DNA from: Sycon ciliatum
Taxonomy: Eukaryota; Porifera; Calcarea; Leucosolenida; Sycettidae
Direction: 5' to 3'
NCBI RefSeq assembly: GCF_964019385.1
Contig: NC_088643.1
Location: 80,232,999 to 80,296,998 of the forward strand
DNA length: 64,000 bases
In this document: in pieces, positions 1,993-63,731 of the stretch
Numbering within the stretch: position 1 is the stretch's first letter
How the letters are laid out: every line of letters starts with the position of its first letter
Translations under genes and position numbers: made by a program
The notes under the pieces: generated by a model
Told to the model about the DNA's origin: nothing
The model's input: the letters and a program-made list of their open reading frames with translations, nothing else
Databases searched by the model: none

Positions 1993-16301
<14,309 letters not shown>

Positions 16302-16805: not shown

Positions 16806-19800
16806 GTCAGCCTCTGCGAAGAATTGCTCCAGTTTTGATATTGGAGTCTCGGCCAAGTCGTCAAATGACCGTTGATATCGGCGCTGTGAACACAAGAAGA
16901 AGAAGAAGAAGAAACGAATAAAATCAATAAGAGAACACAGTCATTATGAAAAGTAGGACACTGGATCGCTGCTTCTTTCTTCTACACAATTGTCTCTCTC
17001 GCAGAACTCGCGCGTGGGGGGGGGGGGGGGTCAACCTCATTATTTACTTCAGAGGGCATGTGCTTCACGCAGAAGACAGCAGCGCAGAGCGCAGCAACTG
17101 CATGTGTTGTGACTTTTAAGTTCGCATGACCTGCTAAACAGTCTTTTTGCTCATCCGCTGGTGGCTACATGGTACACTGTGGCTGGTTTCAACTTACCTG
17201 CACCATTGGTCTTGTTTGAGAAAACACGGGCACAGAAAGACGACGACGCAGGCCACTCGCATGAGGTGGCTTCAGGTTATTCCGTCTGATGACAATAGAA
17301 CCTGTAGAAACACCTTCGTTAACTTCATCCGCCGCTGCTTCCTCCCTGCTCTCGGTCGAGGTATTGACAGCCAGCTGTCGTTGCAACTGAGCCACGGTGT
17401 GTCTCAAATCAGTGATTTGCACAGTGAACCTGCAGGTCGAGATAACAATGTCAAATTACACACATACATGGTTCGCTCAGGCAATGGAGCTTTCTTCGGT
17501 ATCAGGATATGTGCTGGGGTCTGTGTTAGTCTCAATTGCACCTTTGCAGGGGACATTCCCTCTCAAAACAGGTAAATCGCTAGCCATGCAGACACGCTCA
17601 GATTCACTAACCGTTCTGATTGCTGAACAAGGCGCGCATTCTCTGTGCTCAGCTCATTGACAGTGTCCTGCAGTCTCAGCGCACTGCCGCGTGCCACGGC
17701 CAGCTGCTGAATGAGGTCGGTGTGCTGCGAGCGCAGTGCAATGTTGGCTGCCTCTAGATCAGCGCTCATGGTCTGCGTGTTATCCAGGTCCTGCAGCACT
17801 GCATGCTCAACCTGTCAACAACATACATACGACAACAGGCACGGAAACGTTTGACAAGAGGTGCGAGAAATACCATAGCGGATCATGTAATGTTCCAACC
17901 ATATGTGCAGAGCATTCCTGTGACAACTGGCACAGGAGCTGGCCCTTTAGTAGGGTCAGTGTCATTCATCACAAAACTCTAGTCCAGGTGTGTTCCTTCA
18001 TGGTCTCCATGGACAGGAAATCAATGCCCAGTGAAAGCCAGTACACTACCTACACTGTCCTGGTCATGCCCCATACCTCAAACGTTCTCAGCTTCTCGTG
18101 AATATCCATGTCCATGGCCTCTCTGACAATCGTGTCTGGTACTCGCGCACCAAGTGCTGGCAGCACTGCCTTCATGCACTCCAAGATCTGTTCAAAACTG
18201 GTGCACTCTAGCAGTTGCCGCTCGGCATGGCGTAGTAGTGTCAGGCACACCTACCATCCACAACACAAAAAAGAAACCCAACAGTTGGAACTGTTATAAC
18301 TGAGGTACTGTTAGCTGAACTCCACAAAATGAACAACATAAGAATAGCTATGGAGCTGTGCAATGTGCTGATTCTTACCAGGCATACATAGGTCAACGTT
18401 CCACAGTACCAGATCTATCATTGATTCAACATCCACCGATCATGTAAGCTTCTACAAACATGCTCATGCCTTACCTTGAAAATTGCATCAATGCCATCCA
18501 AGAAGATAAGATCTGTGGAAATCAGACACACAGAAGCACATCCAAAAGAAGGATAAAGAGTGTGTCAACATGTGCCACCGTGACTTGGAGACACAACAGC
18601 AGAATGATACCGAATTCCTGACATCAAGTAACAGCTAATCATCACCAGCTGTGTTGCTCAGACACTAGCATGACAAGCCCCAATGCCAAGCAAGCTCAAT
18701 CATGTGGTTAACAAGCACGCCCGTTGCCCGGTAGTTGCTCACCGCTGTTCCTTACCCATTGTTCTTGTAGCAAAGTAGAGTGGAAACTGGGAGCAGAACA
18801 AAGTCAGGAACCACGGCGCTGCGTAGAAGAACGGCGCTACGTCGTGCTTTTCAAACAGATCATGCATCCTTGGGTGATAGTCGTGGAGCAGACGAGACAA
18901 CTGGTACAGTCTCACCTGCAACACAAGGAGCAGGGAGGAAGAGGGGGAGAGGAGTTATTTACATGTATGCAGCAAAACGAGGACTGAGAAAACGTGCCAG
19001 AAAGAGGATTAAAACTACGTGATAACGTGGAGCTATGCTGAATGGTGCGGGTATGACAGTGCCTTGTGCAGGACTTGAGCACATCCAAATAGGAAGACCT
19101 ACCTGCAACCTTGCCATATCCGGCTTGTACTGATCACGCAGCTCGTCGTACATCAGTGCAAGTAGAAAGTGGAAGGCATCGCTGTCTGTGTCCGCCTGCA
19201 GTATAGTGTGCACACCAAACATGCAACAACACAATGTCAACTAAGGAACATGTAACCCCTACTGTAAGTCTTCAAATTTTCGGCCCAATTCAAATTTCGG
19301 CCTCCCAGGGCTAAAACCCGTTTCGGCCACATCATCTTTTTGGCCTGTACTGCTGCCGCCTGTATACACTGTCACACTGAACCTTGCAAAACAATTTTTC
19401 GGCCAAACATGGCCAGGCTGAAAATAGCCGAAAATAGATATGCGCCGAATATTTGTCGACTTACAGTAAAAGGAACCGATGATCATCAAGTAACCCACAT
19501 GCACGTGCATGCATATACATCCATACACCCAGGGCCTGCATATACATCCATACACCCAGGGCCTGCATAACAATCCATACACCCAGGGCCTGCATATACA
19601 TCCATACACCCAGGGCATGCATATACATCCATACACCCAGGGCATGCATATACATCCATACACCCAGGGCATGCATATACATCCATACACCCAGGGCCGC
19701 ATTGTGTATGCCCAGCACTTAGTACTTACATGCATGATCAGGAGGCCAGCGACAAAGCTCAAGCCTTGGCAGTAGCCGACATCCTGATCCACGCTGGCGT

Positions 19801-22800
19801 AAGCACGCAGCACATGAAATAGAGAGCACTGTCCGGGACCAGCGACACTTTGGAAGTACTCATGGCCAGGAAACGTGCGACCTATGCAATGGAGAGAGAG
19901 AAGACGAGGAGGGGTAACAAACAACATAGTTAATTAACGAGATAGATCATACGCTTGGGCGCAGGAAATCCAAACCGGCAGCAGACAAAGACACCAGAAG
20001 TTCCACACGATCAAGATTGAATACCATCCCAGACAAAGACTCGAAAGAGACGTGCCGACACACATAGTTGAAAATGTCACAAACATATTATTTTAGTTAT
20101 TTACCGAGGTCAATGATGATGGCATGGAGGAAAGGTGTGCTCTGGACTTTGAGAATTTCGAAGTCCAAAATCTGGCCATTCGCAGGAGGGGTCGAATATC
20201 CAGAGTCGGAATTACCAACAGGCTTTGGCTTCAATAGCTTAGAAGGTGGTTGCAGTGAATTCAATAGTTTCCAGGCACGTCCATGTAGACCCTTTGGTAT
20301 TCCTAGAACAATGGACACAAGAAGAGCATTGCATGGAGAGTTAACCATTGGCAAGACACATCAGCTCAAGTGGGATTCGCAAACTGATGAAGCTTGAACG
20401 TAAATACTTCAGTGCACTGTTGCACATAGGCCATCATCGCAGCAACTGAAGCAGCACCGTTGCATGCGTCTCAAACTTCCAATCATTGCCCACAACGTGA
20501 AGTGCGTTGTTATTCATTCAATGCTTACCATCTGCTACGGCTTTCCTCACGCCGCTTTTCAGCGCAGACAGCTGTTCAAGCTTTGCATTCTTCGCTGAAC
20601 TGAGTAGTTTCTCCCAGACCTGGGTGAGGCGCTCCTGCTCGCTCTGCTCAAGCATGTCACCGTAGGCTAACCTCCTGGCCTCTAGCTCACCAGGCTCATA
20701 GTCTAAGAAAGGATCAGAGGAAAACCGAAAAGGACGAGAGGCAGAGAGTTACTATTTCATGACACAGGCTGCAGTCATGCTTGTGTACGACTGCTAACGT
20801 TAACTAAAATTCGAAACAGAATGTCAAAAAGAAAAGTTGTTAGCTTTTTTGTTAGCGTTTCTCATTCAACTACAGCACTTCTCTACCTTGCAGAGATAAC
20901 ATGAAAGTCAACATGAAGCATCAGCTACAGCTTGCCACCCAGGTATAAAACCTGGGCAAGAACTTCATCCCACAGCCATTTTCAGGAGAGCTCAGCTGGT
21001 GATTGGAAGACTACTGTAGCACTTTATAAAATTGTTAGAAGCAATGCATGGGTTAGATTAGAGATTGACCATGTAGCTCGCGTGTTCTTACGTTTCTGCG
21101 AGGCCTTCTCCAATCTCACCAACATCACTTGCTCATCTATAGCTCTCTTCCACAAGCCTCTGGCAGTTGGTGAACTGGTGTAGTCGCGACGAGGGGTGAG
21201 CAGCGGATCAAGGCCGGACTTCTTGGTCAGCTCATCGTCATCTTCATCATCACCAGCAGCTTCTTTAGAAGGGGATAACGGCTGGCCACCAGGTGTTGCG
21301 TGCGCAGTCTTGTATATCGACTAGAGAACACCAGTGGAATAGCACAGCAAGACGTTATTCTCAAATCTTGCAAAACAGTTCACGTCTTACACATGCTGGT
21401 AGTCTCCAGTTAACCATGACTAACAATTGGGCAAAGGTGTTACTCATAGTCATACAAGAGACAATAAACTGTGTAAACAAACTTGATATAGAAAGGGTAC
21501 TAGTAGTCGACTTACAGCCGGGGTTTAACTGCCATCAATTAAACCGGGAAATAGAGGCCCCAAGTGTGTGTGTGTGGGGGGGGGGGGGGTGATTTATAAC
21601 TGGTAAAACCTGTACATACCACCAGAAATACTAGCACCTAGAACTTATAGCCCGGGAGCAATAATAATGGCTTCTTACATGACGGAAAGATGTCTTCCTG
21701 GTTGGTGATCTGGGAGTTCTGCGACGCAGCGATGGTGGAGTATGTGCTGGAACTGACAGTGTGGGCGTGCCTGGCGGTGATGGGTGTGGACTGCCGTGAA
21801 GAGGTGATGATCGTACCTGTCCCGATACGACAGGAAGGCTCGGATGTCGCTGAGACTGAGAGGGGAGAAACACAAAACACATCCGATAGGGTTGGAAACA
21901 GGTCCAGTCAAAGCCGCTTCAAACACAACCAATCCAAAACCTGGTTGTGGGAATGCACCATGGACATCATACATGTGATGTGAGTACTCCATGGACATAC
22001 AATACATGTGATGTGAGTACTCCTTCAAAGCCTGACATGAACACAACACACAGGTGGAGGAGATGGTGAAACCACTCAAGACAACCGCATGCTTAGCACG
22101 CACACACTGGAATATCCAAAACTGCTTACTGCACGCGCTGATTCAGGTCCACTTTCCGCGTCTCCCTCATGTCCGATGGTCTTCCGTCGAAGTGATGTGC
22201 TTGGACTCTGTACACATGACAAACCATTCAAGAGCACATTGCATGAAAACACCGTGCTGTACATGTAGCTGACGCAAACACATGCTAGACTCCAATAAGA
22301 TCAGCCGGCTCATCAACTGAGATCACACTCTCCCACTAGGCAATCGTGGGCCATTAATTTTGGGCAACAAAATTTGACTATGTTGTTACCAGTCTCTCAC
22401 CAAACAATCCTTTTCACATCAGAACAAACATCCTGGTTTACACAAATCTGCCTATTGGTCCAATGATGCCTGGCCCTGATACCCAATGTCACAGCCCACC
22501 AGTTTGCAATCCTGTACAAATGTGTCATTGTGCATATTACGGCATACATCCACCCTACTCCTAAACCATACCTCACTCTTCCCCGCTCTGATTGCTGACG
22601 GTGAGGCAGCTGGTCGATCCTACACATTATTAAAAATAAATAAATAAACAGTGTCAGTGGCAATGTCATAGCGCACACATCACACCATTGTTGCGTACGA
22701 TGCACCACAATGACAAAATTAATATCACACCATTCATTACCTTCTTACGAAGGCCTTCAATGGAGCTGGCTAAGGTACGCTTTGCCCTGGACAATGGGCC

Positions 22801-25800
22801 GAGGCGCGGCTTGGATGTCGCTTCATCATTGTCTTCAACCTCCATAGGCTGTGCGTGGGAAACAAACAACACTGGGTGTTCACATACAGACAATGCTAGG
22901 AGTACCAGCAGCAGCACTGTGACATGAATCATGCAGAGCACACCAGATGCAGCAGGTGACCACCACCAGTAGCAGCAAATTGCCATGCAGAGTACAGCGA
23001 AACCGTACTAGATACCGCATGCCTGACAGGCCCATTACACACAACACACTATATTCTATCCAGTGCTGGAGTATTTCTCTACTGTTGCAGATGAACATGT
23101 CCAAGGACACTTGAGACACACCAACACTTGGAAACTGAAGACACATTTCGACAGTTCACTGGAGGTAAGGATTCGCACACTTTTAAAACTCCTAAATGAG
23201 GACACTACTTGAAGTGAAGTGAACCAAAGGTACAGCTTGGGCCAGTCCCTCAGATGTCCGAATTATTCAGGTTAGACTGTGTTCACTTCACTCAATAGCC
23301 AATACCATGTACATCCCAAATAGCCAATACCATGTACATCCCGCCCGTAGGCCAGAATAGTGACTATGCACATACCCTCACACACCGCCGGCTGTCCCGT
23401 TCTGTCACCTATGCTCACCTTTTCGCTATCGGAGTGACTGTGCTCGCTCTGCAGACGCTCTGAAATCCCCCTGAGCATGCCCATGGTGATCTGTAGCTGC
23501 ACGTCCTCACTAAACTGCTGGATAGCTTGCGCACGGTCCGACATCCACGTGCGATCTTCTTTCGGTAAGCCTTCAATTGCCTGCAGGAACGAGAATTACA
23601 AAGCACCATACAAAGTATAATCGTGCTTCATAAAATACCATCTCATGAATACATGCCGGTAAGCGCTTTGGACTGGTGTACGGAGTACTACAAATACACT
23701 TTGGACTGGTGTACAGAGTACTACAATATGCTTCTCTTGCTGTCTGATCACATGCGACGTCATCATTATGTGATTTGTTTTCAATCCTCCGCCATGGCAA
23801 ATTGTGTTTTGTTCGCCCGTAAAAGAGGCTTTTACTACTAAAAAAAACAAAAAACAAAACAGAGTACTACAAATACGCTTTGGACTGGTGTACGGAGTAC
23901 TACAAATACAAGTCTGGGGCTTCACAGCACCCGGCACTAGTTGACTCATGATTTAACTGAGCAGCACTGCAGCGCTTAAAAGGGCTTCCACAGATCTTTA
24001 CGACCACACCATGCAACACTCTCCAACACGAAGAGGATACATTACTGAAACAGTGCGGCATTGACGACCGAATGCTGCTCAACTGTTAAGCACAAGGGAA
24101 GGCATCAGCTCGTGCTCAGGGCGTACACTGCTCACCTTAGTAGCAAAGGCCTGAGCCGCCTTAGCATTCAGGCAATCTGTGCAGAGAAAAAGAGAGAAAT
24201 AGAAACGGCCACCGTCAGTGCACAGATGTACACAATCAGAGTGCATGTACACATGTTCAGGCAGAACATACATCCGATCACATCACATGGGTCTGGCTTG
24301 GCCACTACATGTGCAGTCTACCCAACATCATATACAGTGGTCCCTCTATAATCCGGCACCATTTGTGCCACGGAAAACCTGCTGGATTAGGGAGGGTGCT
24401 GGATTAACAAATCTGATTTACTGCTGCAATGTGCATGAAGAGGACATTTTGGCTACTGAAAATTGTGCTGGTTTATCGAGGGTGCTGGATTATAAAGTGC
24501 TGGATTAGAGAGGGACGACTGTATATATCGCTCCTGCTCTTGTAGCAGTTGAGCACTCTTGCGTGGGGTAGTGCCTTTGCTGTTTGCGTAATGCAGAGCT
24601 CACTGACTTGTCAGTTTGAGCACTCTGGCAAGGTACGTTCGGGCCTGATTGGAAATTTTTATTTCCATTGCTATCAGGTTCGGCCTCATTTCCTCTGTGC
24701 TGCGCTGACGAGTCCACAAAGGACGAAACAGTTCTGTCCGCAGATTGAGTATTTCGCTCCTGCTCTTGTAGCAGTTGAGCACTCTTGCGTGGGGTAGTGC
24801 CTTTGCTGTTTGCGTAATGCAGAGCTCACTGACTTGTCAGTTTGAGCACTCTGGCAAGGTACGTTCGGGCCTGATTGGAAATTTTTATTTCCATTGCTAT
24901 CAGGTTCGGCCTCATTTCCTCTGTGCTGCGCTGACGAGTCCACAAAGGACGAAACAGTTCTGTCCGCAGATTGAGTATTTCGCTCCTGCTCTTGTAGCAG
25001 TTGAGCACTCTTGCGTGGGGTAGTGCCTTTGCTGTTTGCGTAATGCAGAGCTCACTGACTTGTCAGTTTGAGCACTCTGGCAAGGTACGTTCGGGCCTGA
25101 TTGGAAATTTTTATTTCCATTGCTATCAGGTTCGGCCTCATTTCCTCTGTGCTGCGCTGACGAGTCCACAAAGGACGAAACAGTTCTGTCCGCAGATTGA
25201 GTATATATATATATATATATATATATACAGACCAGCACCCGACATAGATCTTACGCCGGCCTGTCACCACACAACCACAGTCTAACTACTGCTATGCCCT
25301 TACTGCTATGCCCTTACTGCTATGCCCTTACTGCTATGCCCTTACTGCTATGCCCTTACTGCTATGCCCTTACTGCTATGCCCTTACTGCTATGCCCTTA
25401 CTGCTATGCCCTTACTGCTATGCCCTGTGCTTACTGTTGACTTGAACACAAAGTTTGTGCAGAGTGTACATCGGACAGGTCTCGCAGAATGGCGACCGAA
25501 TAGTGACCGGAGGGTTCCGGTGTAGCTCAAATGCCACTTTGAAGCTCTTCGTAATGGACTCCATTATCGTGACACACTGCAGGAGCAAAAAGAAATCAAA
25601 AACAGGCCTTCACCCATGGTGAACCACACAAGTGGTGCAAGAATAGGCTGCAACCACCCAAACTGAACTATTCCACGAGCATCATAAGCATAGAAGATAG
25701 AGGTATTGCGACTAAATCATCAGTTGAGATGCTTTGTATGAAGTGGCAGAGCCGTGGCGCAGTGATGCACTAGCTCAGGCAAAACCGACAACTCACGCTG

Positions 25801-32772: not shown

Positions 32773-32921
32773 TAAAGTAACTTAGAAGTTGATTGTTCCA
32801 ACTAGGAACACACGCTTCTTGCCGAACTTGACACTTGACTGACTCACGACTGCCATCCGGAGCACACGAGGAGCACGTCGCACCTTCCACTCGGCAAACC
32901 TGCAAGAAAGCACCACTCCCT

Positions 32922-32967
32922 GCTCAATACACGGTGTTTCGGGGAATTCACCCCTCATCAGTTGAGC
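32922..32967 (-). ncRNA. Hammerhead ribozyme, left arm
   Basis: Reverse-strand copy of the ribozyme described at 33237-33282, with the same core and stems: GCTCAA/TTGAGC stem I, GGGG/CCCC stem II, short stem III, GTA cleavage triplet. Confidence 0.87.
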
Positions 32968-33236
32968 TTGAGTAGGCCGAGGAAGATTGTGCCTGAAAAG
33001 CACCACTTATATACTGCTCTCCAGGCCAAACCATCACCAGGGATACAAACTTACAGAGACGCTTTGTTTCCAGCTCGACAAACACCTCGTGAAGCTCCAG
33101 GTAGCAGCGTGAGTCAGAGTCGCTCATGGAGTTGTGATAAACAGACGTTGAGAGCCAGTATAGCTGGTGATGGTTTGGCCTGGAGAGCAGTATATAAGTG
33201 GTGCTTTTCAGGCACAATCTTCCTCAGCCTACTCAA

Positions 33237-33282
33237 GCTCAACTGATGAGGGGTGAATTCCCCGAAACACCGTGTATTGAGC
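33237..33282 (+). ncRNA. Hammerhead ribozyme, right arm
   Basis: Stem I GCTCAA (33237-33242) pairs with TTGAGC (33277-33282). Core CTGATGA (33243-33249); stem II GGGG/CCCC with loop TGAATT; GAA at 33264-33266; stem III ACAC/GTGT with a one-base loop (or ACA/TGT with three). Cleavage triplet GTA, cut after A33276. All invariant bases are present; type I topology. Confidence 0.88.
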
Positions 33283-33469
33283 AGGGAGTGGTGCTTTCTT
33301 GCAGGTTTGCCGAGTGGAAGGTGCGACGTGCTCCTCGTGTGCTCCGGATGGCAGTCGTGAGTCAGTCAAGTGTCAAGTTCGGCAAGAAGCGTGTGTTCCT
33401 AGTTGGAACAATCAACTTCATGACTATTACCGCCGAAGTCGCAACTTCTAAGTTCGTAAAGTAACTTAG

Positions 33470-52179: not shown

Positions 52180-53259
52180 TCTTGCCTTGGCGTAGACTAG
52201 AGCTCATGTCAATCTGGTCCGGTGTAGACCAAGTTGGTCTTGGCAAGATCAAGACTAGAGTAGAGTCAAGAATAACCTCCCCCCCCCCCCCCCCTACACA
52301 CGTGAGAACTAGACCTGGTCTAGTGAGAAGGCATTCTACTGCCTGTAATTCTGGTGAAGTAAAAAAATAAAGTAACAACAACACACACATAGTCTTGGTG
52401 TAGACGTATAGGCCTTCTGTCTGGTCTGACGTCGTGATGCATCAAGACAAGAGCACATGAATTAAATAGGAAGCAGTGGAAGGCAGAACCCGCCAGTGGA
52501 GACATCGCTATATGATATATCGCGGACAAGACTATGAACAGCAGACTTCAGAACGTCAGAAGATTAGCCAGCATCAGTGGATATCGCTCTGTAATTGCTT
52601 TCAAAAATTGAACTGCATGGTCAGTTAATGCCCGGTTAGCGGCATGTGCATCTGATGATGCCGCATCAACGGTTAACCTTCACGGTTGAAACATTTCAGG
52701 AGGCGCTTGAGTGTGACACAAAACGTCTCCCCCTTGTATGCCACTGTATTCTGTTGCCCTCGGGAAAACCATCACTGTGCTCACCAGTGCCGGCTCCACT
52801 CACCGACCAGCTCTTGGCGGATAATGCCGGCGAAAAAGTGGCATAATTTGCCAGCACTTTTTCTTGTATTTTAAACTGTGTATGTTTCATGCATATTTTT
52901 TTGGTATGTTCCTCTACATGTACATGTACATGACTGTATGTGGATTAAGGTTCGTATGGTTCTGCCAATTAATATTTCACTGCTTTTTTAGCAGAATCCA
53001 CCATTTTCAAAGTTTAGGCACTATCCGGCCGCCAACTTGGGACCGCTCTGGTAAGGGCGTGCTCACGTTGCAACAAGGGGCGAGCGTCCAAGCGACAGCG
53101 AAACATAGAAAGGCATGATCGCACGGTCATGCTCACACAAAGTGTAAAAACACCAAGGAAGGGTATTACGTGTTCAAATTTCTTGATACATGTATTCCGA
53201 AACTGATCGGTATGATTTTTCAAGATGCACGGTCCCAAATTAAAAGAAGCAACCTATCA

Positions 53260-53462
53260 CAATCTTCCTCAGCCTACTCAAGCTCAACTGATGAGGGGTG
53301 AATTCCCCGAAACACTGTGTATTGAGCAGGGACGGTGGTGTTTTCCGAATGGAAGGTGCGATGTGCTCCTCGTGTGCTGCGGAAGGCAGTCGTGAGTCAA
53401 GTGTGAGTTCGGCAGGGAGTGTGTGTTCCACGTACATGTAAAAGTCGCTACTTCTAAGTTCG
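53260..53462 (+). mobile_element. Solitary 203-bp hammerhead element with 8-bp target duplication
   Basis: Matches the right arm of the 33-kb inverted element from AATCTTCCTCAGCC through ACTTCTAAGTTCG. ACCTATCA lies immediately on each side (53252-53259, 53463-53470). This gives clean boundaries for one unit of the family. Confidence 0.82.
53282..53327 (+). ncRNA. Hammerhead ribozyme in the solitary element
   Basis: GCTCAA/TTGAGC stem I, CTGATGA core, GGGG/CCCC stem II with loop TGAATT, GAA, ACAC/GTGT stem III, GTA cleavage triplet (cut after A53321). One base in loop III differs from the 33-kb copies; all core bases are kept. Confidence 0.87.
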
Positions 53463-55023: not shown

Positions 55024-58000
55024 ATGCCCGTCCGAGTCGGCACTCGGGTTGTCCGAGGTCCTGACTGGAAATGGTCGAGTCAGGACAAGAGGTCCGGCAA
55101 TTTGGGCACAGTCTTCAAGGGCACGGCATCACAGGGATGGGTGTCGGTGCACTGGGACCACGGGCATACGGCTAATTACCGATGCGGTGCCGATGGCAAG
55201 TACGACATTAGTATCTACGACAACGCGGCGGGCGGTAAGTAGAGTAGAGTAGTCCAATGAACGCGACACGTACACTTGTCTTTTCCTCCTGAGCGCCTCT
55301 CCCATGGCCCACAGGCACAGGATGTTATAATCTAGCGACAGCCTAGGAGGACTGAACGTAGGCTGCATGTGTGTGTGTGTGCCTGCCTGAGACACCAAGA
55401 CGAAAACAAACTATCATTCTGTAGAACTGAAATGAAAATTTCAATTTGTGACTGTGGGCACTTGTGTGTGTGTGGGGGGGGGGGGGGGGGGGCACTAGCA
55501 GTGATAATGACATTTTCATTCATGATCAGATGGTGTATCATTTTTTCAAGGTAGCAATACACTCGATACCCAAGTTGGTTACTGCTGCAGTAATCATGAA
55601 GAACTCTGATTTCAGAGGCCAGTTCCAGTTTTACCTAAACATTTCTGACAGTGTGACAGATGACAGACTGACTTCCTATAAAATGTATGGGGAAAAAGGA
55701 GGACAAACTGTTACGAGTTATTTAATTGGCTCACCATCCGAGTATAAAATCATAAAATGTATCTATGATTTTGTGGACTGCAAGCTTTGTGCAGGCGTGT
55801 AGCACCGCCGTTGGAGGTGGTCCAGCTGGAGGGGGTCCGGGGGATGCCCCCCCCCCTGTGAAAATTTTTAAATTAGGGTTTTTAGGGTGCAGAATCCTGC
55901 ACTCATCTGTTCTTCAATGACCTGCTTGTGAAGGTCTATGCGTTTGATATGGTCTAAACTCTGCTATCTGCAGGTGTGGCACACCGTGGCATAACATGTG
56001 ACTGTTGCCGTTCCGACAACGTCACGGGTGTGCGCTGGAAGTGCTCCGTGTGCTACGACTATGACTTGTGCAACCGGTGCTTTCACAAGGGCGCGCACGA
56101 CAAGGCACACCAGTTCTACCGAATCGACGAGAAGGATGGGCCATGGTGGGTTTGTGCATGTGCGGTACATGCTGATGCCATCCCATCAACATGGCGGTGG
56201 TGTTGTCCTATCTACGTATCAATAATCGGCCTTGAAAGTGATGGCATACCGTATTTTCCGGAGTATAAGCCGCACGTTGAACACTCAAAATTTGCCCAAA
56301 AAAGGGGTAGTGGCTTATACTCCGATGATCAAATTAGCCGTGATAAATAGGGCAGATGTCTGCATTTTGTGGCAAGAAAATGGGGGTGCGGGGGTGCAGG
56401 GGTGCAGGGGTGCGGCTTATACTCCGGAAAACATGGTACATGTAAGTGAACTGGCATTAGCAATGACTAATAGCGCCTTCTGGCCTGGCCCTCTCTGGCA
56501 TTAGCAATGACTAATAGCGCCTTCTGGCCTGGCCCTCTCTGGCATTAGCAATGACTAATAGCGCCTTCTGGCCTGGCCCTCTCTGGCATTAGCAATCCTT
56601 TAAAGTACAGTGTGTAGCGTGTAGGCTCTTCGTGTTGCACCCTCCGTGACCCTTGCAGTGTTGCACCCTCCGTGACCCTTGCTGTGTTGCACCCTCCGTG
56701 ACCCTTGCGGTGTTGCACCCTCCGTGACCCTTGCAGTGTGAATTTTTCTGTGCCCGGAGTGGGTCCTCCACTGGGAGGGCCCAGTCCTGTCACTTCCGGT
56801 GGATGTCTCACCCTCCTGTGAAGGAAAACCACCCAAACGTGTATGGATCCATAGAGACGTAGCACTGTCAAGCCCTAATGATAACCTATTGCCGGGGGGG
56901 GGGGGGGGGGGGGGGGCAGTGGGTTTCTACACACTGTACAGGTAGCATTGAAATGCACAACCCTCCAAAAAGACGAGAATAAAGCAGCCATCAAAAGTCA
57001 CAACGATATGATGCCTACACACCCGTGCCAATGGGGTGGTAAACCAAGCTTGGAGGATGGACCAGTCCTTGCCATTATTGGCATCTAGTGACAGGGGTAG
57101 AGTTACTAGAGTATAGAAAATTGTGATCATTTTTTGCACAAGCCATAACCTTGTCTTTCAGATTTCAACGCCATTGCTACCAGTATATCCCAGATGGGTT
57201 GCCCATTCAAAGATGTTCTTTCCCTTTTATTGCTAGTCCCAACTGCCTTTTGCATTTGGGCTGCACATGTTTATTAATTTTGTTTTGTTCTGTTTTGTTT
57301 TTTCCACTGCCTCAGGATTTTGACACCCAGGCGCACATCCTCTTCACGGTCCCAGCTGTTGGGCATTGTACCAGGTGCGGTGGTTGCACGCGGCCCGGAT
57401 TGGAAGTGGGGACCACAAGACGGTATGTGCTTGCGAATGGCTGGCGCCTAGGGGTATATTATGTGGGGGGGGGGGGGCGGGAGGATGTAACTTATGGGGG
57501 AAGGGGGGAGGGCTAAATGTATGCGGCGGTGACTCTAACTGGCCGCACACGTTAATGTGGATTTACTTTGTGGCGTGATGTATGAGATATCATATCTGGC
57601 ACCAATGTACTAATGTGCTACCGTATTTCCCCGTAAGTTAGTACGTACTAACTTTCGAACTTAGCAGCCACATGACTACTAACTTTCAGGGGTGGTACTA
57701 TCTTTCGGGGAGTACTTTTTTATCGGGGTAAATGACACGCAGTGGGAAGCCTGCGCAACTCTAGTGTCCGTGCATATGATGTATGTACTGTACGGTGTCT
57801 GTACATGTAGGACAGGTACGAACTTACTATCTTTCGGGGGGGGGGGGGGGGGGGGGGGACTGTCTTTCGGGGTGATAACCTCGGCAGTGGAAAGTGCGTT
57901 TTATAGGGGGTACTAAGTCATTGGGGAGAACTAACTTACGGGGAAATACGGTAATGTATCCTGCACTCCCACCATTATCCAGTGTTGGCAGATTGCACGG

Positions 58001-59637: not shown

Positions 59638-62600
59638 CGTTGTTACTGCAGCTGCTTCTGTTGCAGTTGCTGTTTATGTGCTGTGGTGTGTGTGTGGGGG
59701 GGGGGGGATCTCAGAGTTTGCAGGACAGAAGTGATGGGCATGCGAATGCATTCACAATGCAAGATTGTGCCGAAGCTCACGGAGTCACTTTTGTGTACAT
59801 CTGCAGTTTCCGGGATTAATTGGTCGCGTTCGCAATTTCCCCACACGAAACAGTGCGAATGTTGAAGTTCACGTCGCAGGCCTGGGCCGGTCTTTTCAAA
59901 TCAGCTTATCAGCACTGCAGGCGATGGCTGTCCAACGAGTGGGTGATCGTGTCCGAGTGACGTCCAGTAAGGCAGAGGCTGTACTTCATCAACGCGGCCA
60001 TGGTGGTTGGAATGAAGCCATGGCCGGTGTCCTCGGTAAAGTAGGGCAGATTGTGAACATAGACAGTGATGGAGATGCACGTGTTCGCTTCTCCAATGGC
60101 CAGTCCTGGACGTTCAGCCCAAGGTGTCTGACTCACGTTTCAAGGGGCGCAGTTGACAGCAGCACACTGAAGGAGAGCGATGACAGTAAGGACTTAGACA
60201 TCATACGTTTATCTATGAGATAGCTGAGGGTGCTTGCAAGTAAGATAGACAGGGTTTATCTATGAGGTAGCTGAAGGTACTTGCAAGTAAGATAGACAGG
60301 GTTTATCTATGAGATAGCTGAGGGTGCTTGCAAGTAAGATAGACAGGTTGAGCAGTAACAGTACTGCTGTCGTGGGCATGGAAATCCGGTCGCACGTCTA
60401 GCGGCCCCAGGGCGCTGGCTACGCAGCCGTGGGTAAGCGGAACACACATGCATTTATGCGCTGTAGCGCGCTGGTCGGATCAACATGTGCACTGCAGTCT
60501 GCATGCAGCGTTCTGTACGCGCGGAGGGCGCCGTCCCCGGTCAATTGACTGGATTTCCATGTACACGACAGTAGTTGAACCGGTGGCTTTTACGCAATGT
60601 TGTGAAAATACTGTAGTGTGAAGGCTGCTGCACTTGAAAGCTTTGCATATTCACCCTATGTGGGTAAAATAGTGGGAAGTATTAAATGCTCATTAGTTGA
60701 GTCAATTGTGTGTTGCTCCCTACGTGGGAGCTCGCGCTTTTCCTGCCGACTTGAATTCTCACTTGACTGACTCACGACTGCCATCCCGAGCACACGAGAA
60801 GCTCCGTTTCCAGTGCGACAAACACCTCGTGAACACCAGATAACTTAGCAGCGTGAGTCAGTGTCGCTCTTGGAGGTGTTGAACGAACGATGAGGACCGT
60901 TGGCCATTCACTCCGTTGTTGCCTCCAAGCCATCTAATTTGCAAGCCCGCGCTGGGGACAACAATGTGAAGAAGAGGTTGGTGCGACTTCGGCGATACTT
61001 GGGGAATTGTGTGTTGCTCCCCACGTGGGAGCTCGTGCTTTTCCTGCCGACTTGAATTCTCACTTGACTGATTCACGACTGCCATCCAGAGCACACGAGA
61101 AGTCCATCAAACCTTCCACTTGGCAAACCTGCAAGAAAGCACCACTCCCTGCTCAATACACAGTGTTTCGGGGAATTCACCCTGGCCTCATCAGTTGAGC
61201 TTGCGTCGGCTGAGGAAGATTGACGGTGTTTGAAGAGTACCACAGATATAGCGCTCTTCAGACCAAACCATCACCAGGGATACAAACTTACAGAGATGCT
61301 CCGTTTCCAGCGCGACAAACACCTCGTGAACACCAGATAGCAGCGTGAGTCAGCGTCGCTTATGGAGGTGCTGAGCAAACGCTGAGGAACGTTGGCCATT
61401 CACAACGTTGGTGCCTCCAAACCATCTAATTACCAGTTGTCAGTCAGTCAAGTGAGAATTCAAGTTGGCAGGAAAAGCGCGAGCTACCATGTAGGGAGCC
61501 ACACACAATTCCCCAAGTATCGCCGAAGTCGCGCCAACCTCTTCTTCACATTGTTATCCCCAGCGCGGGCTTGCGAAATAGATGGTTTGGAGGCAACAAC
61601 GTTGTGAACGGCCAACGGTCCTCAGCGTAAATATAGCGTATATAGCGCATAACTGTTATAGGGCCCCAGCTGTTGTTCTACCAAGTGAATTACATTCTTA
61701 TTGAAGTGAGCTCGTTTTTCTGCAAGGTTCGTGAAGCACCAAGATTATGTAGGGACTCGCTGGACTGTGCTGTATGCCTGTACTGCTCAATGTTGATCAT
61801 TGCGTGCAGGTGACCAAATGATGCGAATGCTTGGAAGACTGCTTGGAATACCGGATGGCGGTGGCGATGATTCCGGTGATAGCGGCTTTGTGCGCCTGTA
61901 CAATGCGTCCTCCGAGGGTGATGCGGAAAAAGTCCGAGAAGTGCTGAAAAGTGATCGAAGTGTGGTAAGCTTAGGAGTACTTTGAACTGTGTTACTTGAA
62001 ACCTTGATTGTTCTTATTAAAACACTGAAGTGTTAGTTCTGCTTGAACATATAGGAGAAGATGGCTGCTCCCAATGACTCACAACTGCCGTCTAGCGGGA
62101 TAGAAACGTGGTGAAGATCTGCCCAGTTTATAGAGCATTCAACTTGTTCATTCAGGACTAACAAGTAATCCAAAATGACGAAAATATGCCCTGGGCACAG
62201 TTTTTAAGTATTTTGTTATGGTATCATGACAGTGCTGTACACACCACTGCTTCCATTTAATGCTGACTCTATGTCCACATTCATGCAGGTTCGCACTGCC
62301 AGTGAAAGTTAATTGCTGAATCCTAACTGTAGTTCGCTCTTTTTTGCCCTTGGGCTATCTCTAGAACTATGGCAATGTTCTATATTTTTTAAACTCTTGG
62401 CTATGCACTGCTATCAGAAGATGGATCTCTCTTGCCATAGCTGTTGTGGACAGTGTGAGATTCCCTGAGACTAGCAAGTATTTAGAGACACTGTGTGAAT
62501 GCCTTCTCCATGCTCGACGATAGATAAATCGGACGCACAATGGAGTATGCCCATTGCAAGTGGCAGCGTACAAAGGTAAAACAGGCTGTCTCAATGCTCT

Positions 62601-63161
62601 GCTGGACAGTGGGGCAAATACAGAGTTGAAGGACAACGATGGAGACACGGCGTTGGCTTTTGCTATTGCCGGGTAAGCACTGCCGGTTCAGTTGTCCTTC
62701 TAGCGATGCCTATGATTGATTTTGGCTGCTCTATTTCGTTTGCTGAAGCTTGCAAGGGCTCTGAAGGTGCGTGTACTTGCACTACGATGATTACCTTGCA
62801 AAGAATCACACTGAATTGGTACACACTGAGGCATGTTCACTTACTGTGCCATATGATAGGGAGTTCCGGAGAGCGGATGAGAATGAAATGAGGCTACAGA
62901 TGCGTATTGTACTTTCAGAAGAAATGAATCCCATCTAGTGTTGTCATATGTTTGCTTCTTAGCCTTAGAGCAGTCACATTGTGTATTGCTGTGATACTAT
63001 ACAGGAATGAATCAAGCTGTGCACGCATCCTGCTTGATCACGGTGCAAATGCAAACGCTCGCAACAACAAAGGCCAAGCCGCACTGCACATAGCATGCCA
63101 CAATGGATATATTCAATGTGTGCGGGTACTCGTGAGGCATGGCGTTTCTACCAGCTTGAAG
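55024..63161 (+). CDS. MIB: Mind bomb-type E3 ubiquitin ligase (5' part)
   Basis: Mind bomb ubiquitinates Delta/Jagged ligands to drive Notch signalling. Exons: 55024-55234, 55974-56145, 57316-57422, 58034-58122, 58327-58395, 58688-58769, 59214-59347, 59807-60185, 61810-61964, 62524-62672, 63005-63161; all phases match. Domain order: MIB_HERC2 1 (GTRVVRGPDWKWSSQD, about residues 5-70), ZZ zinc finger (C-D-C-C...C-x2-C...CNRCF-HKGAH, 75-125), MIB_HERC2 2 (ARGPDWKWGPQDGG...YRVGYEGN, 150-220), two REP-type modules (GHGGWNEAM...WTFSPRCL, 265-420), then ankyrin repeats (NGVCPLQVAAYKG, G-x-A-A-L-H-I-A-C-H-N-G). The ATG at 55024 begins one residue-run before domain 1, as in the family. The remaining ankyrins and the C-terminal RINGs lie beyond 64000. 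MIB1 versus MIB2 is not settled. Confidence 0.93.
56248..56437. mobile_element. MITE with ACCGTATTTTCCGG ends
   Basis: The end CCGTATTTTCCGGAGTATAA with following GCCGCAC reappears inverted (to 56436), TA on each side. 188 bp, non-coding, in a mind bomb intron. Internal GGGGTGCAG repeats at 56385-56412. Confidence 0.85.
56453..56596 (+). repeat. 44-bp minisatellite, 3.3 copies
   Basis: Units beginning GGCATTAGCAATGACTAATA repeat without change 16 bp right of the preceding MITE. Confidence 0.95.
56633..56738 (+). repeat. 26-bp minisatellite, 4 copies
   Basis: Units of TGTTGCACCCTCCGTGACCC plus TTGCNG, differing only at one position. In the same mind bomb intron as the 44-bp array. Confidence 0.95.
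56894..56916 (+). repeat. Poly(G) run of about 23
   Basis: One of the longest G runs in the window, in the mind bomb gene. Others of 13 or more lie near 12361, 12601, 13601, 17018, 21577, 32361, 35852, 45553, 54010, 55473, 57838, 58998 and 59047, and as poly(C) at 33790, 38132, 38216, 40975 and 52279. Confidence 0.95.
57621..57951. mobile_element. MITE with CCGTATTTCCCCGTAAGTTA ends
   Basis: The end CCGTATTTCCCCGTAAGTTA is inverted at 57930-57951; TA flanks both ends (57619-57620, 57952-57953). Its outer CCGTATTT matches the MITE at 56248, with the same TA target. Internal CTAACTTTCGGGG blocks repeat around a 22-base G run. Sits between mind bomb exons 3 and 4. Confidence 0.85.
59421..59648 (+). 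repeat. (TTG)n trinucleotide array
   Basis: About 75 TTG units with scattered TCG and CTG variants, followed by TG and a G run at 59697-59707. Intronic between mind bomb exons 7 and 8, so the long Leu/Cys frames it creates are not coding. Confidence 0.95.
60204..60347 (+). repeat. 47-bp minisatellite, 3 copies
   Basis: Units of GTTTATCTATGAGATAGCTG plus AGGGTGCTTGCAAG and AAGATAGACAGG start 18 bp after the donor of mind bomb exon 8. Confidence 0.93.
60706..61640. mobile_element. Compound foldback copy of the hammerhead-2 family
   Basis: A block starting TTGCTCCCTACGTGGGAGCT and running to GAGCACACGAGAAG occurs directly repeated at 60714 and 61011, and inverted at about 61441-61500. The segment 60880-61005 is the inverse of 61505-61640 (GTTGGCCATTCAC, TGGCATTGTGAAG-like parts, CGGCGATACTTGGGGAATT). 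The middle (61140-61350) matches the 33-kb element, including ACCAAACCATCACCAGGG. Lies in the mind bomb intron between exons 8 and 9. Confidence 0.75.
61151..61200 (-). ncRNA. Degraded hammerhead ribozyme
   Basis: Same stem I, CTGATGA, GAA and stem III as the other family members, but stem II has a four-base insertion, leaving G10.1-C11.1 and a GGG/CCC helix separated by a bulge. Probably weak or inactive. Confidence 0.65.
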
Positions 63162-63731
63162 GTTGGTCAAGTACTAGCTTGGCCAGCTCATCACTTTTTT
63201 TTATACCGTAATGTGTGCAACTGCAGGTTGTTGACTGATTCTAGCGGGAGTCGGTTCTTGGCATGGACAGAACCACACGCTGTGCCCAGTCCTGTGTTAT
63301 AGTACGGGGGCCAGGTGCCCACAATGTTTACTTTCGTTGCAGTTGAGAGCGCACAACTTGTTGAGAGTTTCAACCGGTGTAGAGGGGACCACAAGGTGCT
63401 CAACGATATATTTTTTTACCCTTGAAACGTGATGGAAGGTGCTGAAATTAGCCGTTGAAGTTTAGTGCATGGTAACCATGGCAACTGCATAGCAACAACA
63501 TAGCAACTACTGTTTTCTTGTTTTTAGCCAACAGTAATGTTCTAGAACGATTGAATGACTCAAATCAAGTTAACACGATACGGAATGAAAACCATTGGGT
63601 TATATACAGACTGCAGGAATGCCAGAAAAGAATGTAAAAAAGCATAATACTCTTGCATGTACATTGTCCATGGATGTGTATGTAATGTAGATGCACGTAA
63701 TTGAAACTCAATCTCATGCTATAGTGGCAGT
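63162..63731. other. Mind bomb intron sequence, no exon recognised
   Basis: After the donor at 63162 no further ankyrin coding exon is visible before the window end. Confidence 0.5.

Follow-up and report, generated by a model that had tools for sequence, protein, structure and literature searches.

A probable 226-bp hammerhead retrozyme in the calcareous sponge Sycon ciliatum and the insertion anatomy of its copies

The window analysed here, a stretch of 64,000 nucleotides from the genome of Sycon ciliatum, holds ordinary animal gene exons (19259-19933 on the minus strand; 55958-56350, 59735-60223 and 62928-63302 on the plus strand), the products of which are a RabGAP-TBC protein and a Mind bomb-like protein with ZZ, SH3_15 and ankyrin domains. 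The longest transposon-like reading frame in the window (9014-11506, minus strand) encodes 830 amino acids with DUF1280. EukProt protein P0001, its closest relative, is 93% identical over the length of the frame and also bears PF12560 (precomputed assignment), which we take to be the RAG1 importin-binding domain; the frame possibly encodes a transposon protein with a RAG1-like N-terminus.

The plus strand of the window carries, at 24528-25204, three head-to-tail units of 226 bp, each with an intact type I hammerhead ribozyme. The features of this array are listed below. Unit phase 1 denotes the first base after the predicted ribozyme cut.

24335..24521, no strand: 187-bp MITE with 25-bp terminal inverted repeats (22/25 match) and a TA duplication
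24528..25204, plus strand: retrozyme array, three 226-bp units in a (TA)n tract (repeat finder, end mapping)
24529..24535, plus strand: 5' junction between the window copy and the TA tract, at about phase 17, after three whole units
24699..24744, plus strand: type I hammerhead of unit 1; core CTGACGA at 24705-24711; predicted cut after C24738
24925..24970, plus strand: type I hammerhead of unit 2; predicted cut after C24964
25151..25196, plus strand: type I hammerhead of unit 3; predicted cut after C25190
25199..25204, plus strand: GAGTAT, the fixed 3' end of insertions (35/41 arrays, flank words)
25201, plus strand: putative first copied base, G25201, unit phase 11, outer end of helix I (array 3' ends)
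25202-25203, plus strand: putative primer site UA (array 3' ends, flank words)
25202..25227, no strand: (TA)13 tract forming the 3' part of the target and sharing its first three bases with the element end

The MITE, which does not belong to the retrozyme, lies inside the TA tract that borders the array on its 5' side. Tandem Repeats Finder delimits the repeat at 24524-25204, with period 226, copy number 3.0 and 99% matches. A sequence-only reading of this DNA had claimed a tandem 226-bp period with near-zero divergence, and this is borne out: units 2 and 3 are identical, and unit 1 differs by one base, at 24527 (A for T), inside the unit junction. That reading had set the array at 24526..25204. 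Its end, T25204, stands, whereas unit-specific sequence begins only at about T24528/C24529, a correction that arises because both array ends run into (TA)n.

The hammerhead of each unit reads CTGCG-CTGACGA-GTCC-ACAAA-GGAC-GAA-ACAG-TT-CTGT-C-CGCAG, with cleavage predicted 3' of C24738, C24964 and C25190, at a spacing of 226. For helix III, 3 bp closed by a 4-nt loop are more likely than 4 bp closed by a 2-nt loop. The complete type I core that had been claimed for every unit was recovered both by motif scan and as three Rfam Hammerhead_1 matches of 30.1 bits (E 3.5e-5 in 1.1 kb, 0.0021 in 64 kb). This Rfam check, proposed earlier, yields matches that lie below the curated cut-off of 34 bits, which is why a default Rfam scan of the window at the gathering threshold returns no entry for the array hammerheads. 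Scanned for the full motif on both strands, the window holds six hammerheads, three in the array and three of another family, against none in 40 dinucleotide shuffles, with scan settings that were picked after the motif had been seen. The other family, AAGCTCAA-CTGATGA-GGGG..CCCC-GAA-ACAC.GTGT-A-TTGAGC, lies at 32785-33419, 53258-53460 and 61041-61386 and comprises a 635-bp near-palindrome whose arms bear one hammerhead each, a copy with a single arm and a related copy that is rearranged; it resembles the minimal hammerheads of Penelope-like elements. The motif scan found no hammerhead on the minus strand of the array, the tRNA gene search found no tRNA gene, and self-BLAST of the window found no additional full copy of the 226-bp unit. 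The unit has a GC content of 49.6% and is devoid of a reverse transcriptase or GIY-YIG reading frame; one array frame (minus strand, 121 amino acids) gave no Pfam match, and no LTR was seen.

The sequence-only reading had called for BLAST of the monomer against the host genome. This search (538 Mb, 313 contigs) revealed further multimers and at least 48 matches to the unit, and more arrays were present in the fetched flanks. The unit is a dispersed multicopy element and not a local minisatellite. Array lengths range from 0.16 unit (fragment at locus L131) through 7.1 units (L167) up to about 10.7 (L171: 3471-5904). Array counts leave out the segmental duplicates L141, L152, L153, L156-158 and L163, the second L168m copy (in L171), and L169 together with the L168 plus array (the same as or a duplicate of L171b); the remaining arrays are counted as independent, with L139/L140 and L134/L141/L144/L146/L148 having common flanking repeats.

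The two ends of the arrays differ sharply. The 3' end lies at phase 12-15 in 35 of 41 arrays, which places it 12-15 nt beyond the cut, immediately outside helix I, the six exceptions being L144p (191), L159 (225), L162 (132), L164 (10), L165 (138) and the L166 fragment (78). At the 5' side only 8/41 ends fall at phase 12-15 and 17/41 at phase 4-17, and the other 24 take 22 different values. The interval 12-15 was not fixed beforehand, and the argument is the contrast between 3' and 5' ends; for the 41-array count, the 5' phase of L149 was set by eye from 189 (in the hammerhead of a second family) to 14. Six of the 41 5' ends (L139m, L142, L143m, L145, L154, L160) lie at phase 76-83, in the TAATGCAG region, perhaps through a pause site or microhomology. 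A 3' end within 3 nt of the ribozyme cut occurs in one array of 41. The shared 3' end is thus not the ribozyme cut, so that hammerhead-cut linear monomers were not the direct templates.

Which template, then, would give arrays with one fixed and one variable end? The reading that we favour, with a probability of about 0.7, is target-primed reverse transcription that starts at a fixed UA of an RNA circle and laps the circle repeatedly, with self-cleavage, the circle and the enzyme all presumed. Whole laps are what the 5' ends at phase 4-17 would represent. The composition of the arrays bears on this. Units are 99.3% identical within arrays (65 pairs) and 91.5% identical between them (2550 pairs). 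Two subfamilies, of 226 and 228 bp, are distinguished at 11 columns, and 17 of 18 multi-unit arrays are pure for subfamily; the exception, a fragment at L137, aligns poorly and was scored at two columns. Among 42 columns polymorphic within arrays, 30 have an array-private allele and 12 have both alleles elsewhere, some of these 12 falling at the junction. Mutations private to an array and present in all its units had been expected as proof of one template per array; only two were found, against 30 private to some units, and the one-template case therefore rests on unit identity and subfamily purity.

One array qualifies this picture. L169:151-2126 and L171:3471-5904 are segmental copies of it, about 56 kb apart, which agree in left flank, 5' phase (99) and 3' end and yet hold about 8.7 and about 10.7 units. 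At least at this locus, then, the array grew or shrank by two units once it had been inserted, and laps cannot simply be counted from the number of units; it is this length change that set our estimate for the circle reading. The near-identity of units had earlier been ascribed to recent insertion or homogenisation. Homogenisation now seems less likely than one template per array, although this duplicated array does differ by about two units.

Could uncleaved multimeric linear transcripts have served instead, with internal initiation of target-primed reverse transcription and the circle as a by-product? A fixed internal start and variable 5' ends are equally predicted by such templates, and the 12 columns with both alleles elsewhere are as expected from a polymorphic source array. 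The Poseidon element PAc of Anolis took unprocessed RNA in vitro, and mutation of its hammerhead left insertion unaffected (PMC11167929). Yet 5' ends that mark whole laps and the near-uniform units inside arrays speak for the circle, and BLAST of the flanks found no source-array flank copied upstream of 5' ends, the only matches being duplicated loci, a common TA-bearing repeat and the second retrozyme family. We regard linear templates as an unlikely, though serious, alternative.

The flanks of the arrays point to target duplication. Among non-microsatellite sites, 10 of 16 share a flank word of 8-16 bp, some of these words perhaps including a few element letters, as compared with 5 of 240 mispaired flanks (38 arrays, with the 5' phase of L149 taken as 189). 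The ten words start with TA (seven), GTA (two, the G being the element's) or TG (one, L167), and TA stands at the junction in nine of the ten sites. At the other six (L137, L149, L151, L159, L160, L164) the word is shorter than 8 bp; for L149 the initial bounding was wrong, and its true 5' border gives a 12-bp duplication, while L152 and L153, relatives of L151, have 11 bp. The 16 bp beside the 3' junction have an AT content of 0.77, versus 0.56 at 200-800 bp (28 arrays, leaving out L144, L159, L164, duplicates and later-fetched arrays), and a short microsatellite is present at 16 of the 28. TA tracts make many junctions ambiguous, and the target duplication of the window copy is not determinable in (TA)n. 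The flanks of L144 recur uninterrupted in L141 and L171 (97-99% identity) as a palindromic repeat with a bare TA centre; judged by this match, the repeat is the empty site for L144. Retrozyme insertions have recurred in the TA-rich centre of one palindromic repeat family (L144, L146, L148, L134, L141/L168, L171). Dispersed copies, the fixed 3' end, the variable 5' end, target duplications, an empty site and multi-unit arrays can all be read directly.

TA at most junctions and multi-unit arrays would also be expected if extrachromosomal DNA circles of the unit reinserted by microhomology at TA tracts. Duplications of variable length, combined with one end that is fixed and another that varies, are, however, the signature of target-primed reverse transcription, as established for LINEs, and the head-to-head copy at L143 is hard to derive from DNA circles. 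We consider their involvement very improbable.

L143 consists of two head-to-head arrays enclosed by one duplication of 12-14 bp, the minus-strand array having its 3' end at the left flank and the plus-strand array at the right. Both DNA ends appear to have been primed at the same RNA site. Tail-to-tail pairs at L139, L144 and L148 were considered as twin priming as well and rejected, separate insertions in TA tracts being the better reading. L149 is composite: about 1.5 units of the second retrozyme family and one 226-type unit lie within its single 12-bp duplication. The simplest reading of L149 is a template jump between retrozyme families; a nested insertion with a 4-bp duplication is possible. 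The two families also lie next to each other at L155-158, where, however, a separate 8-bp flank word belongs to the 226-type unit. The second family has a unit of about 235 nt (L149:713-1062 and the upstream parts of L155-L158) and a hammerhead reading TTGCA-CTGATGA-GGCC..GACC-GAAACAGTCTGGCTGTC-TGCA, with short stretches in common with the 226-bp family. Other hammerhead-like motifs flank retrozyme copies at L139:802, L140:829, L141:830 and L155:2059 and in the duplicates of the last.

From the fetched arrays, segmental duplicates included, 75 hammerhead instances were extracted (74 full-length and one 6-nt scrap), representing 22 variants. Whereas an ordinary minisatellite confined to this locus, with random core mutations elsewhere, had been named as the outcome that would speak against a retrozyme, 31 of the 74 full-length hammerheads are identical to that of the window; some single units in other arrays have mutated core or stem bases. 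The second subfamily has U-A in place of C-G at helix II pair 3, a single U-G intermediate also being present, and its loop III is larger, the 228-bp units having the palindromic loop CATG. In the set of 21 distinct full variants, pairing holds in 95.8% of cells. None of 500 shuffles reaches the observed count of cells changed on both sides (9) or the covariation score, but the single covarying pair is matched in 343/500 shuffles, and the pair types are not exceptional either. With one covarying pair, the support for conservation rests on a single compensatory event.

An ordinary satellite or minisatellite spread by unequal exchange, with the hammerhead as inherited baggage, would account for tandem units and for segmental copies of one array that differ by about two units. 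Such a repeat should have random end phases and no target duplication. The copies instead occupy dispersed sites with a fixed 3' phase, target duplications, an empty site and a head-to-head copy, and the ribozyme holds a compensatory change, all of which makes a satellite origin most improbable. The evidence supports the locus as a putative single insertion of an animal non-LTR retrozyme, in agreement with the candidate animal retrozyme that the sequence-only reading had proposed; the unit is dispersed and multicopy and has the anatomy published for non-LTR retrozymes.

How might circle-templated insertion proceed? A transcript of tandem copies would self-cleave at each hammerhead, and the 226-nt monomer would be ligated into a circle. 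An endonuclease-bearing reverse transcriptase acting in trans, probably Penelope-like, would cut AT-rich DNA, and the cut strand, usually TA-ended, would prime on the UA that lies 12-13 nt beyond the cleavage site, directly outside helix I. Copying would begin at G11 and continue for a fraction of a lap to several laps round the template, stopping at varied points, with 5' truncation, or, after whole laps, near its start; a staggered second cut would leave the short target duplication. L143 suggests that both DNA ends may at times prime, and L149 that the enzyme can switch from a template of one retrozyme family to that of another. The window copy would correspond to three whole laps into a (TA)n tract. 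We infer the RNA intermediate, TA priming, whole-lap stops, twin priming, the template jump and the trans-acting enzyme from the anatomy of the copies.

The predicted folds speak in part against this scheme. The circular monomer has a predicted energy of -75.6 kcal/mol with 68% of bases paired (z -2.7; as stable in 3/200 shuffles), in secondary-structure predictions that are free of tertiary contacts and co-transcriptional folding. The hammerhead does not form in the predicted circle, where its helix pairing probabilities are at most 0.024. We folded 30 distinct units, six of them without the exact motif and three 5'-incomplete; among the 21 complete units with the exact motif, none has helix I in the circular minimum-energy fold. 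The energy penalty for a forced hammerhead is 7.4 kcal/mol in the circle, as against 5.5, 6.7 and 11.2 kcal/mol in three linear contexts. The hammerhead-free fold predicted for the circle could mean protection from recutting, or it could be a sign against efficient cleavage.

Locus L176 contains a reverse-transcriptase relic (RVT_1, E 4e-11; 7247 homologues among 7982 candidates scored), which we take to be of Penelope type, its downstream frame presumably being a GIY-YIG endonuclease. Pfam gave no endonuclease match, and the motif scan found no hammerhead near the relic in L169-L177. PAc cleaves AT-rich targets, initiates at an internal site and extends both DNA strands (PMC11167929); together with its acceptance of unprocessed RNA, this supports the enzyme class, not the circle. 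Penelope-like elements such as Poseidon resemble the present element in their type I-like hammerhead, tandem copies, AT-rich targets, internal initiation and extension of both strands, but they encode a reverse transcriptase and a GIY-YIG endonuclease (PMC11167929), whereas no such frame is present in the 226-bp unit. The start of PAc lies 111-118 nt into its ORF, with a hammerhead cut 26 bp in and no homology to the cut DNA (PMC11167929); the putative start of the 226-bp unit lies about 11 nt past the cut, with TA usually shared.

Animal retrozymes are already known, according to the available portions of PMC7229834, PMC7761336, PMC4918200 and PMC8490949. The non-LTR class is described in the accessible text of PMC7229834 as tandem units of 150-450 bp with a type I hammerhead and a GC content below 50%, with no LTR, PBS or PPT reported there; units measure 220-240 bp in the coral Acropora millepora, 350-390 bp in mussel and 330/350 bp in axolotl. 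Circle-templated reverse transcription has been proposed for animal retrozymes before, and their repeats are said to hold no conserved motif that would indicate the helper (available parts of PMC7761336 and PMC7229834). The present element fits this class in its dispersed 226-bp tandem units, its 49.6% GC and its highly self-paired predicted RNA, and in target duplications longer than 4 bp (8-16 bp words at 10/16 sites and 12 bp at L149). It further agrees with the class, as portrayed in the same text, in its small, apparently non-coding units with one type I hammerhead each, in arrays from dimers to long multimers, in GC below 50% and perhaps in co-existence with Penelope-type elements (PMC7229834). 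It differs in its calcareous sponge host and in a unit sequence unrelated to any in the collections searched. The fixed 3' end, the TA rule and the twin-primed and composite copies belong to the 226-bp element and are not described in the accessible parts of PMC7229834, where a predicted circle that blocks the hammerhead, as found for the 226-bp unit, is reported for some mussel circles and not for most animal ones.

Plant LTR retrozymes also have a hammerhead-bounded non-coding unit and a proposed circular-RNA mobility (PMC4918200, available text), but with type III hammerheads, LTRs, PBS/PPT, about 700 nt and 4-bp duplications (PMC7229834, PMC7761336, available text). The hammerhead satellites of newts and schistosomes are transcribed tandem repeats with type I hammerheads, and the palindromic tetraloops of newt-type motifs recall the CATG loop III of the 228-bp subfamily (PMC7229834, PMC4918200, available text); unlike in those satellites, the unit here measures 226-228 bp, and helix III is longer than in newts. 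Neither sponge retrozymes nor a fixed start site are reported in the titles and abstract openings searched, most subscription papers lying outside reach. The exact hammerhead-plus-helix pattern is absent from the prokaryote genome contigs scanned, and a looser hammerhead pattern occurs in at least 120 stretches of viral contigs. Among the matches listed, BLAST of the unit against the viral loci gave only stretches of 25-34 nt in the hammerhead, so that these are unrelated ribozymes. Many phage contigs (L001-L080) have hammerheads, several of them followed closely by an ATG among the matches listed.

The element is a further animal retrozyme, and its interest lies in an insertion anatomy that is unusually informative. 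We lean slightly towards the view that animal retrozyme arrays directly record target-primed reverse transcription of the rolling-circle type, with a UA set by helix I, a closed RNA copied over several laps, priming from two ends and jumps between families. If this is true, it would be a natural route from small ribozyme circles to satellite DNA. The copies supply a defined start site and a rule for the target, together with target duplications, 5' ends at whole laps, and insertions that are twin-primed or composite, and the proposal becomes testable at the bench with a named template position. The hammerhead region may, besides cutting RNA, mark the start of reverse transcription.
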